This document shows positions 513 to 12,461 of a stretch of DNA of 64,000 nt, in pieces (position 1 is the stretch's first letter; every line of letters starts with the position of its first letter). The notes beneath the pieces were generated by a model. It was not told where the DNA came from and made no database searches. It saw only the letters and a program-made list of their open reading frames with translations. The translations under genes were made by a program, and so were the position numbers. The stretch covers positions 186,001-250,000 of the forward strand of contig CANLII010000001.1 in NCBI GenBank assembly GCA_947491315.1, in the 5' to 3' direction. Origin of the DNA: Ignavibacteria bacterium. GTDB lineage: Bacteria; Bacteroidota; Ignavibacteria; Kapaibacteriales; UBA961.

Positions 513-1440
513 ATGAAATCATTACTTGATATTGGATCTTTATCTAAAAAAGAAGTTTCAGACATTTTTAGTGTTACATCGAGTTATCTTATTGATAAAA
601 GAGATGATCTATTGCTAGGAAAACAGATAGTCATTGGATTTTTTGAGTCTTCAACACGCACAAGAATTTCATTCGATCTTGCTGTTCAGCGAATGGGTGG
701 TAAGACAATACAATTCTTGGCACAAGGAAGTAGTATATCAAAAGGAGAATCTTTTGTTGATACAATACATACATTGAATCAGTTTGGCATTGATGGCTGG
801 ATCATTCGACATAATCATGCTCTTGCTCCAGGTCTTGTCGCTACTGAAACTCAATTACCTGTGATCAATGCAGGGGATGGATCTCATCAACATCCAACAC
901 AAGAAATGCTCGATGCATATACGATATCAAGGCATTTAGGTGATTTGGCAGGTAAGAATATACTGATAGTGGGCGATATTCTTCACAGCAGTGTAGCTCG
1001 CTCAGAAAGTGATATATTATCACGATATTCTTCACAGCAGGGTAGCTCGCTCAGAAATGGATATATTATCATTATTGGGAGCCACGGTTGGAATATGTGC
1101 GCCTGGCACATTATTACCAAAAGGATTGAATTTACATACCTATTTCCCGACTTTGCATCATGGTATGCAATGGGCTGATGCAGTGATTATGTTACGCATT
1201 CAAAAGGAGAGAATGGTATCTGGGATAATCCCATCCGAGGATGAATACCAAAAGTATTTTGGAATGAATGAAGCTATTGTAAAAAAATATTCAAATGTAT
1301 TGGTACTGCATCCCGGACCCGCAAATTATGGAGTGGAATTTTCAATGGAATGCATGAATTACAAAAATGTATTGGTACGAGAGCAAGTAAAGAATGGACT
1401 TGCATTAAGAATGGCAGTACTTAAACATTGTTTCGTTTGA
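513..1440 (+). CDS. pyrB: aspartate carbamoyltransferase catalytic subunit, frameshifted by a 49-bp tandem duplication
   Basis: Aspartate carbamoyltransferase condenses carbamoyl phosphate and aspartate in the second step of pyrimidine synthesis. The 5' part (513 to about 1020) holds the carbamoyl-phosphate loop FESSTRTRISFD, the HNH segment RHNHALAPG and the GDGSHQHPTQEMLDA segment. The 3' part, in another frame from about 1023, holds HSRVARSEMDILSLLGA and ends with the HPGPANYGVEFS segment, where canonical enzymes have HPGPxNRGVE. The two parts are separated by a direct repeat with a 49-bp offset (974-1022 and 1023-1071). Removing one unit restores a single frame of about 292 residues, near the usual 300-310. 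As written the gene yields a truncated protein. I start at ATG 513, after the HU terminator. No regulatory pyrI is adjacent. Confidence 0.88.
974..1071. repeat. 49-bp imperfect tandem duplication inside pyrB
   Basis: Two adjacent 49-bp units (974-1022 and 1023-1071) begin CGATATTCTTCACAGCAG and differ at three positions. Unit 2 encodes the conserved HSRVARSEMD, while unit 1 changes the Arg and Met to Ser. 49 is not divisible by three, so the duplication shifts the frame. Confidence 0.9.
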
Positions 1441-3354
1441 TTACCAATCATTTTCTGCAAGAACTATGATTTTATCTTCTTCGAAAAATGTAAAGTTCTT
1501 GGTCTTATCGGGATTAACAATAACACCTTGATCGAGAGCATCTTCATCATATTTTGAAAGCAATCTACAACCAATTGCTATTTCATTCTTTCTTCTTGCA
1601 GATTCAACAACGGTAAAAAAGTTTATTGGTTTACGTAATTCAACATAATCAGAAGCAGGCTTGAGATATACCTCAGAGCCTTCTGATCTAAATAAATCCT
1701 CAAACACCAATGCCAATGCTTTTTCTTCAGATACTTGGGACAGCATCAAAGAATTCAACTTATCACTAACAACAAAATCATCAGCTCTGGTTACTTTGAC
1801 CAACTCACGATTTCTGATGTCTAACATTTGAGAAACAATTGAAAACGGATGACCTGATTTTTCTGCGATATCACGCAAATGCAAGAGAGTGAAAATAGTT
1901 CTCGCATCTGATTCTTGAATATTATTGGTAATTGAATGACTCAGAATGATGATATGATCATAGGTCTCGCAGTCAAGTGAATCGAGAACTCTACGATTAC
2001 TTGTATCACCAATGATATGATGCATTTTGAGATGAGTCAATTCTTTGCCTGTCAATGCAATTTCATGTTCAATATGTTGAGAATCAGATACTATTGTTAC
2101 AATAGAATCTTTAATGACATAATTATCAAGCTCTGTTATGATTGTATACGCTTGCCTATTCCAACCTAAGATTAAAGTCTTCTCGGGTTTTCTATTTTTA
2201 TCTTCTGTTTGTCTGATACTTGTAGCGTCAATATTTAATTCAGGATTATTGACCGGATTGATTTTGGAACCATCTTCTGCCACGACAATTATTTTATCCC
2301 CTCGTTCAATCAATTTATGAGAAGGTGGATTAAGTTGTATCAAACCATTGGAATAACTAATACCAATGGGAGTGCCTCTATTGTAAGAAAAGAGAGCTTT
2401 TGAAAATTGTTTGCCGATAAGTGATTGTTCTTCTAAAAAGTTGATTTTATTTCTTTTGAAATCCAATAGTTCATTGAAAACAACTGAAAGTCCGGATTGT
2501 CTACAAGTTTGTGCAATGATCTTGGAAAGTACATCTTCCATTAGAATAAATGATACTTCATTCTTTCCAACGAGTCTTGCAACTTCAATATTTTTGGGGT
2601 CTCTGATCTCTGCTACGATATGATAACTTTCGGGTCTTCTTTGTGGATTGTTAGTAATGGCAAGAATCATTTTGATCATCAGTGAGTCGGGATCTTCCAT
2701 TCCTTCCGGGGAGAGAATGATGATAGATTTTGCGGTATGTGGATTGATGATTTCAAGATCTGTTAAATCAATGGGATTACCAGTTCTACAAACAACTTTG
2801 GTATTCTTGAAATCAATAACCTTCATATTGATTTCATCTTCCATCTCTACTTTGTCTTTTTCAGCCAAAATGGAGATACATGACCTTTTTTTTCCTTCAT
2901 TTGCAGTTATCAATTCATTGACGATATAAAAGATTTGCGGTGACCATCCTAAAATCACTGTATGGTCATTTTCAATAACAAGAGATCTTCCTTTACGCAA
3001 TTCATCGAGTTGTTTTGCTATTCCACTATTCAAGACACCAATTAAAATGGAAATCAAAACCATACCACCGAGTGTAGCAATGAGCATCAAGATAATATAA
3101 GCTGTACTATTTGTTTCCAAAGATGCCAAAACACCGCCATCCAATGAATGTAAAACGGTATCCCACATCAATTTTCCAAAATCTGCAAATTGTTGATCAG
3201 TTGTTGCAATGCCAACTAAAGCACCAATGATGGAGATAACTATAACAAATAAAACAGAAAGTATGAATAGACCGGCAATTAATGATATAATCCCTTTTGA
3301 CATGAAGCTGTCAAAGTTATACTTTACCAGATTGTTGATTTTGCGAAAAGGCAT
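1441..3354 (-). CDS. CASTOR/POLLUX-like ion channel with RCK/TrkA-N domains
   Basis: A 637-residue membrane protein. The N-terminal 110 residues contain two strong hydrophobic segments (about 22-48 and 85-108) flanking a pore-like loop around WDTVLHSLDGG. Two cytosolic Rossmann-type RCK modules follow: one opens with HTVILGWSPQIFYIVNEL at about 131, the second with KTLILGWNRQAYTIITEL at about 392. Each has the GW-x-x-x short nucleotide-binding turn seen in CASTOR/POLLUX and related bacterial NAD-binding channel proteins. A TrkA-C-like stretch lies between them. The likely role is a ligand-gated cation channel of the inner membrane, but ion selectivity cannot be read here. Its stop codon abuts the pyrB stop (convergent). 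Confidence 0.8.
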   Translation of the reverse strand: MPFRKINNLVKYNFDSFMSKGIISLIAGLFILSVLFVIVISIIGALVGIATTDQQFADFGKLMWDTVLHSLDGGVLASLETNSTAYIILMLIATLGGMVLISILIGVLNSGIAKQLDELRKGRSLVIENDHTVILGWSPQIFYIVNELITANEGKKRSCISILAEKDKVEMEDEINMKVIDFKNTKVVCRTGNPIDLTDLEIINPHTAKSIIILSPEGMEDPDSLMIKMILAITNNPQRRPESYHIVAEIRDPKNIEVARLVGKNEVSFILMEDVLSKIIAQTCRQSGLSVVFNELLDFKRNKINFLEEQSLIGKQFSKALFSYNRGTPIGISYSNGLIQLNPPSHKLIERGDKIIVVAEDGSKINPVNNPELNIDATSIRQTEDKNRKPEKTLILGWNRQAYTIITELDNYVIKDSIVTIVSDSQHIEHEIALTGKELTHLKMHHIIGDTSNRRVLDSLDCETYDHIIILSHSITNNIQESDARTIFTLLHLRDIAEKSGHPFSIVSQMLDIRNRELVKVTRADDFVVSDKLNSLMLSQVSEEKALALVFEDLFRSEGSEVYLKPASDYVELRKPINFFTVVESARRKNEIAIGCRLLSKYDEDALDQGVIVNPDKTKNFTFFEEDKIIVLAENDW

Positions 3355-9187: not shown

Positions 9188-12100
9188 ATGAAAAGAATTC
9201 ATACATTCTTCCTGATTACTCTGATGTTCATTTTTCAGAGTGTATCCCTCTATTCACAAATAGAGAGAATCATTGGTATAAGTGATCCGAAATTCTCAGT
9301 GATGAGAGATCACTTTTACAAGCAATTTCCAAAGTATTCTGAACAGAATTATTCAGATGATAAGTCCGGATATCTGAGAAGAGAACATACAGACAAGAAT
9401 TATACTCATTTCAAAAGATGGGAAGACTTCTGGTCAACTCGATTGATGCCTGATGGTACTTTTCCACCTTCTAATGTACTTATCGATGCGATAGTAGAGA
9501 AAAATGCTCAGAAGGCAAAGAGTAAATTTGAACAAAAATTATCTGCTAAACCGGAATGGTCAATCATTGGTCCAGTTGAAATTCCAATAGGTGGTGGAAA
9601 TGGACGAATTAATTGCATCCAAATGCATCCTAATTTACCAAACCTCATTTGGGCTGGAAGTGCTGCCGGTGGTGCATGGAAAAGCACGGATTATGGTCAA
9701 ACATGGAAGACTACATGTGATGATCTTTTCTCAATGGGCGTTTCAGATATTGCAATGCCTTGGAATAACCCGAATATTGTCTATCTCGCAACAGGTGATC
9801 ATGATGGCGGCCACACATATACAATTGGTGTAATGAAATCTACAGATGGTGGTTCAACATGGAATTCAACTGGTCTTACTTTGATTACTTCTCAAACTCA
9901 ACAGATTTACCGCCTTTTGGCTGATCCTAAAGCAGCTGGTAAATTATATGCTGCTACCAGTCAAGGTTTGCAAGTGACAACGGATGCTGGTGTGACATGG
10001 TCGAAGAAGTCAACTATCAATTTTAGAGATCTTGAAATACGAACCGATAATCCACTGATATTGATAGGATGTACGGGTAGTGAAATTCATAGAAGTACAG
10101 ATGGTGGAAATACATGGGCAAAAATCATAACCACTATCCCAACTACTATTGGCAGAATTTCATTGGCGATAAGTCCTGCAAATCAAGAATATATGTATGC
10201 ATTATGTTCGGATAATTCCAAGGGCTCTGGATTTGGTGGATTATACAGATCTATTGATGGTGGTAAAACATGGGTGAGAAGATCAAATACTCCAAATATT
10301 CTTTCTCATTCAGTTGATGGATCCGGTGCCGGTGGACAGGGTTTTTATGATCTAACTATTGCTTGTTCGTATAAACAACCAAATCATGTGATCATTGGTG
10401 GAATAAATGTATGGAGATCAACCGATGGTGGGACAACTTGGGATATTAGTGCACATTGGTATGGAGCTGATGGTAATCCCTATGTTCATGCAGATGTCCT
10501 ATGGTAATCCCTATGTTCATGCAGATGTCCATGATTTGGATTATTTACCTAATTCAGATAAAACGATCATAGCCGGAACGGACGGTGGAGTTTTTTCATC
10601 ATCCAATAATGGTTTGTCTTGGACAGATAATAGTGATGGACTTTCTATCACTCAATACTATCATGTTGCAACTTCACAGGCTTTGAATCCATCATATTTA
10701 GGTGGAGCACAAGATAATGGAACTACCCGGTTTGCTTCAAATTCTTGGTCACAAATTCAGGGTGGCGATGGTATGAAATGTTTGATTAATCCCACTAATT
10801 CTGCAATTGTATATGGTGCTATGCAAAATGGGTACTTGAATAGATCCACCAATTCCGGTAAAGACTTCGCCGGTACTCTCAATCCTGATGTTACCAAAGA
10901 AAGTGGTCGTTGGGTAACTCCTTATGTATTTAATCCAAAGAATCCTACAGTCATGTATGCTGGATTTAGGAATATTTGGAAGTCAACAAATGGCGGCGCA
11001 CCGGGTTCCTGGGAGAAAGTTTCAACATTTGCCAATACCGCATCTACTTTGAAGCTGATTGCAGTTTCGCCGGCAAACCCCAATATAGTGATTGCCATGA
11101 ATGATCAAGTAGCATATGAATCTACTGATGCCGGAGAGACATGGAATGCAAAATCTTTGACGGGAATCAATATCGGAGCCATAACATCATTTGAATATAG
11201 TCATGATGATGAGAAGATCGCTTGGTTGACGATTGGTGGATTTGGAAATACAAGAGTTTTCAAAACAATCAATTCAGGAGCAACTTGGACAGATATCTCA
11301 GGAAATCTGCCCAAAATCCCAACGAATATTATTATTCATGAAAAAGGATCTCCGGAAAGAGTATATGTCGGTACTGATATAGGAATCTATTATAGAGATA
11401 CAACAACGAATGGTTGGATTGATTATAGCGATGGTCTTCCAAATACGATTGTTCGTGATTTGCAGATCAATTATCCGGCGAAAACTCTCATGGCCGGTAC
11501 ATTTGGCAGAGGATTGTGGAAAGGCAATGTAGTTGGATGTTCAGGTATCTCAGCGACTGCTACTGCAATAGGAGATATAACATTCTGTGCAGGTGACAGT
11601 GTTGAACTCAAAGTAAATGAATCATATCCTTCATATCGCTGGTCTAATGGACAAACAGCAAAATCAATAATTGTGAAGCAATCAGGAATATATACTGCTA
11701 CTGTCACTGATACTGAAGGGTGCACTGGCACGACAAATCAAATAATTGTCACTGTAAATCCTGCACCAATAGCTAGGATCACAACTTCTAAGACTCTACT
11801 TTGTGATGGTGATAGTATTACATTGGATGCGGGTGTAAATCAGTCCTATCTTTGGTCTACAGGTGATACCACGAGAAGAATTGTTGTCAAAGATGGAGGA
11901 AAGTATACTGTTACTGTATCATCATCCAATGGATGTGTGGCAACATCATCTGTACTAGATTTAGTTAAAAATCAAGCTCCTGAAAAACCAATTATTTCTC
12001 GTCAGGAAAATGTACTGCAAAGTTCTGTGATTGGCCAATCATATCAATGGTTTGAAGATGGTTCTGCGAAGTTGAATGCCAAACAAAGAACATATGCACC

Positions 12101-12461
12101 CGGTGAGAATAGTTATGGGAAGAAGATAACAGTCCGAGTTACATTAGACAACAATTGCAGCAGATTTTCAGATGAATTTTTGTATTCTCCATTGTCTGTT
12201 GATGATGATGTAAAGGAAGGTTTCAAAGTGTATCCTAATCCTGTTCAGAATATGCTGTATTTCGAATTTCCGTCAATTTCACATTCAGCATTGATCACTA
12301 TCATTGACCTGGAAGGTAAGACAGTCTATTCCACGAAAATAGACTGTCACCCCGGATTGATCTCAGAAAAAATTAGGATTGCAGATCTTTACTCTGGCTC
12401 CTATACTATTAGAATAGATCAAAGCATGCGTACATTGACCATGAAATTTGTAAAACAATAA
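9188..12461 (+). CDS. T9SS-exported Asp-box beta-propeller protein, frameshifted by a 31-bp tandem duplication
   Basis: A secreted sortilin/BNR-type protein interrupted by a frameshift. A signal peptide (MKRIHTFFLITLMFIFQSVSLYSQ in two hydrophobic steps) is followed by many Asp-box repeats (KSTDYGQTW, KSTDGGSTW, RSTDGGNTW, RSIDGGKTW, RSTDGGTTW, ESTDAGETW). Two Cys-containing Ig/PKD-like modules follow (CAGDSVELKVNE, CDGDSITLDAG), then a T9SS type-A sorting domain starting VYPNPVQNMLYFEF near 12230. The frame is lost at 10500, where a 30-bp segment is repeated with one extra T. Removing 31 bp restores about 1080 residues, against 1086 in the neighbouring paralogue. The reading then continues GNPYVHADVHDLDYL, matching the paralogue's KPYVHADIHDLTF. 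The role is probably cell-surface or extracellular binding or hydrolysis; the substrate is unknown. Confidence 0.85.
10470..10530. repeat. 31-bp tandem duplication breaking the first propeller gene
   Basis: Copies at 10470-10499 and 10501-10530 are identical over 30 bases (ATGGTAATCCCTATGTTCAT onward) and separated by a single T. The 31-bp offset causes the frameshift in the surrounding gene. Confidence 0.93.

Follow-up and report, generated by a model that had tools for sequence, protein, structure and literature searches.

The pyrB gene of the Ignavibacteria draft genome GCA_947491315.1 (positions 513-1440 of the window, the 64,000-nucleotide stretch of contig C1 analysed here) is split between two reading frames by a tandem duplication of 49 bp, and the second unit is very probably an assembly error that is absent from the chromosome. 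Misjoining is favoured because three frame-breaking duplications fall within 69 kb of the contig, because the affected genes are whole in congeners, and because contig ends in this assembly share stretches of exactly 127 bp. The duplication in pyrB is thus most likely no living mutation.

The tandem duplication in pyrB

The two copies of the unit stand head to tail at 974-1022 and 1023-1071, with no spacer. A preliminary description of this DNA placed the repeat correctly and called it exact; since 46 of the 49 bases agree, it is exact in length and not in sequence. The three differences (copy 1/copy 2) are T/G at 992, G/T at 1009 and T/G at 1010, which are positions 19, 36 and 37 of the unit. 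Chance origin is excluded, with about 1e-15 such repeats to be expected when every site and every offset up to 500 bp is considered. The gene breaks at the repeat, as had been described: the frame from the ATG at 513 passes copy 1, loses register in copy 2 and meets a stop at 1178, and what is left of the gene can be read in a different frame as far as 1440. The features are as follows.

513..1178, + strand: pyrB 5' fragment, a frame of 221 aa, PyrB-like to about 1022 and then out of register; N-terminal matches to PF02729 and PRK00856.1/TIGR00670
974..1022, + strand: copy 1 of the 49-bp unit, with T992, G1009 and T1010; reads HSSVARSESD
1023..1071, + strand: copy 2 of the 49-bp unit; reads HSRVARSEMD, as in relatives
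1009..1440, + strand: pyrB 3' fragment (open reading frame), with the Asp/Orn-binding domain, resembling PyrB from copy 2 onwards; matches to PF00185 and to the C-terminal part of PRK00856.1

With the unit counted once, pyrB encodes 292 residues, the length previously given for the enzyme restored by deleting one unit. This single-unit reading belongs with the PyrB family (aspartate carbamoyltransferase catalytic subunit), matching both curated models over their full length: NF002032 with 314.2 bits (cut-off 263) and TIGR00670 with 252.3 bits (cut-off 236.95). The assembled gene, in contrast, is divided between two frames, and both fragments score below the cut-offs. Beside pyrB, at 1441-3354 on the - strand of the window, is encoded a 637-aa protein with matches to Castor/Pollux-type ion-channel, TrkA-N and RCK domains.

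Comparison of the copies confirmed that the HSRVARS sequence lies in copy 2 and that copy 1 carries three substitutions, among them the loss of a conserved Arg. The HSRVARSEMD of copy 2 corresponds to HSRVARSEME in the nearest congener, whose PyrB is 74% identical over the whole protein and which, like copy 2, has the codons AGG and ATG where copy 1 is changed; HSRV is found in 28 of the 29 relatives read at this site, the 29th not being resolved. In the HSSVARSESD of copy 1 a Met is lost along with the Arg, and all three differences are G/T exchanges that alter an amino acid. Confusion of G with T is common among short-read miscalls, which is a hint only.

The other 830 bp of pyrB, outside the repeat, show no damage: the frames are intact and PyrB-like over a length in which 25-51 substitutions would be expected at the divergence of copy 1. 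Against the nearest congener, dN is about 0.19 and dS about 1.5, values that indicate purifying selection and are still compatible with a very recent loss. In congeners pyrB lies in one frame, and a scan of named genomes found no pyrB nearer than 46% identity.

Other duplications on the contig and the assembly signature

Two more frame-breaking tandem duplications lie on the same contig, one of them within the window.

9188..10507, + strand: secreted BNR/sortilin-like protein, 5' fragment, broken by the period-31 duplication
10407..12461, + strand: secreted BNR/sortilin-like protein, 3' fragment, with a T9SS C-terminal sorting domain
10470..10530, + strand: second of the tandem duplications (period 31), carrying an additional T at 10500

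In this second duplication 30 bases match (10470-10499 and 10501-10530); in four congeners the T9SS protein occupies one open frame of 1083-1103 aa, in which the repeated stretch is single. The third, at C1:255,562-255,669 (L132 5562-5669), lies beyond the window, has period 53 with 55 matching bases, and breaks dtd, the gene for D-aminoacyl-tRNA deacylase; four congeners have dtd as a single open frame. All three show what a misjoin would leave: near-identical copies set head to tail, where the single version is that of relatives, and recurrence within one assembly irrespective of gene function, the genes being unrelated.

Tandem repeats were surveyed in about 1.245 Mb of the genome (54%), with C1 complete. 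No comparable frame-breaking duplication occurs in the rest of this ~1.24-Mb sample, and none in 400 kb of two congeners. The other tandem repeats of the sample have periods divisible by three. The exceptions are few and short: a 17-bp one at L145 (between open reading frames), two 25-bp ones at L147 and a 16-bp one at L184. The map of open reading frames is dense in the window and in L132 apart from the breaks at the duplications. A genome-wide frameshift problem was considered and rejected: when congener proteins were used to look for split frames in ~171 kb of the genome's own sequence, only about 10 kb of it at the window's contig end, they revealed only pyrB and one weak candidate. That candidate, at L136 12313-12719, is a possible frame break relative to a congener protein and may reflect plain divergence.

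Exactly 127 bp are common to each of three contig-end pairs: C4/C14, C12/C16, and C1 (its end) with C8 (its start). Such sharing points to a de Bruijn assembly made from short reads with k = 127, and C8 is probably either the continuation of C1 or a branch leaving that node. We propose that two assembly pieces, either contig ends or graph tips, with a 49-bp overlap were set one after the other when they should have been merged across it, since the left piece had base errors at its end; these would be the three G/T differences seen in copy 1. The true pyrB would then encode an ordinary enzyme of 292 residues, read as in copy 2. Both the joining event and the identification of copy 1 as the erroneous end are what we infer from the assembled sequence. 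Two observations count against a misjoin: no runs of N occur at the junctions, and the arrays, at 61-108 bp, are shorter than k, so that a plain graph walk at k = 127 would need reads containing both units. If a misjoin is the cause, the error would have had to enter at gap closing or scaffolding, by carry-over from a smaller k, or through chimeric reads.

Such reads would be available if a minority of the sampled cells carried a real tandem duplication, produced through slippage or template switching and open to reversal when the copies recombine with each other, and the assembler had taken that path. Cells do acquire short tandem duplications, and reads with both units would explain how an assembly at k = 127 kept arrays of less than 127 bp. 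A fresh duplication should, however, be exact, whereas copy 1 of pyrB has three amino-acid-altering changes. The junctions divide on this question: a 2-bp match is present in the period-53 duplication and a possible 3-bp match in the period-31 duplication, but there is none in pyrB, and the second duplication has the extra T. Exact copies with a short junction match, by which slippage or microhomology would be recognized, are accordingly not seen in pyrB, and the other two cases are less clear. Furthermore, three such alleles in 69 kb with none elsewhere in the sample are hard to obtain by chance (probability about 0.009 under uniform placement, for a span picked after the data were seen). In the literature on microhomology-mediated tandem duplication we found nothing on bacteria of use for the pyrB case. 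A minority variant is therefore an unlikely source of the second unit, though the foremost of the alternatives to misjoining.

Misjoins of this general kind have precedents. Artefactual expansions of 318-1264 bp in Vibrio fischeri ES114 v1.0 were disproved by resequencing and ascribed to contig ends that were imperfect and had been placed in tandem where they should have overlapped (Mandel, Stabb and Ruby 2008, PMC2330054). As in that genome, the extra copy here is a tandem, slightly imperfect copy of neighbouring sequence in a gene that is intact in a relative; unlike those expansions, which belong to another sequencing era, the present units are 31-53 bp long and known from assembled sequence. 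False homotype duplications near contig boundaries in VGP assemblies, where sequencing errors stop sequences from collapsing (PMC8081667), are likewise local and at contig boundaries, but they concern vertebrate long-read assemblies and are about as long as a read. Cooley and Wright (2024, PMC11017572) ascribe many putative bacterial pseudogenes to assembly errors, in relation to assembler, platform and coverage; the likeness is to frameshifted genes that are really intact, and the counts in that work are of frameshifts and internal stops in general.

Pyrimidine synthesis and salvage in the genome

The preliminary description weighed an assembly or contig-join error against a pyrimidine auxotroph or a mixed population. 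The error is the member of that set now favoured, the mixed population corresponds to the minority variant discussed above, and a fixed auxotroph fares poorly, the pathway being otherwise complete with no uracil or uridine salvage detected. If the duplication were fixed, pyrB would be a pseudogene and the organism unable to make pyrimidines, and this agrees with the broken frame as assembled and with the lack of a substitute: in the genome (2.30 Mb in 49 contigs, rated 100% complete and 0.33 contaminated) the carbamoyltransferase N-domain family has a single match, pyrB at 513-1440. The search for another pyrB, proposed earlier as a check, thus found none, and as there is no second carbamoyltransferase there is no argF-like gene either.

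The rest of the genome argues otherwise. The CarB, PyrC, PyrD, PyrE and PyrF families are each matched above cut-off by genes without internal stops, pyrE lying ~1.7 kb upstream of pyrB. The salvage search covered two families: uracil phosphoribosyltransferase (UPRT) has no match in the genome and is matched in 14 of 14 control genomes, and the PRK/uridine-kinase family has no match in the genome and is matched in 11 of 14. For the families searched, neither the pathway decay nor the replacing salvage route that would mark a genuine auxotroph is seen. In the relatives search pyrB is present in all 38 good-quality genomes (the source genome included), and congeners keep the gene. Together with the undamaged remainder of pyrB, and with the like breakage of dtd and the secreted protein nearby, which auxotrophy would leave unexplained, these findings make a fixed loss of pyrB hard to believe and, in our estimate, highly improbable.

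Slightly less credible still is the suggestion that all three duplications are real, either as minority alleles acting as on-off switches for pyrB, dtd and the secreted protein, or as sites where ribosomes bypass one unit. Least plausible of all is that the pyrB duplication is fixed and harmless, ribosomes skipping one unit by translational bypassing between matching take-off and landing codons: tandem copies supply such codons by construction, which is the sole point in its favour, but RNA folding over the repeat is ordinary (z = -0.68), the duplications affect three unrelated genes with periods of 31, 49 and 53, and they are absent from congeners.

Consequences for the annotation of this genome

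The main import is for data quality. Annotations based on GCA_947491315.1 should not list pyrB, dtd or the gene for the secreted protein as pseudogenes, and the organism should not be described as a pyrimidine auxotroph on the strength of this assembly. Intragenic tandem duplications whose period is not a multiple of three would offer an inexpensive flag for misjoins in draft genomes.
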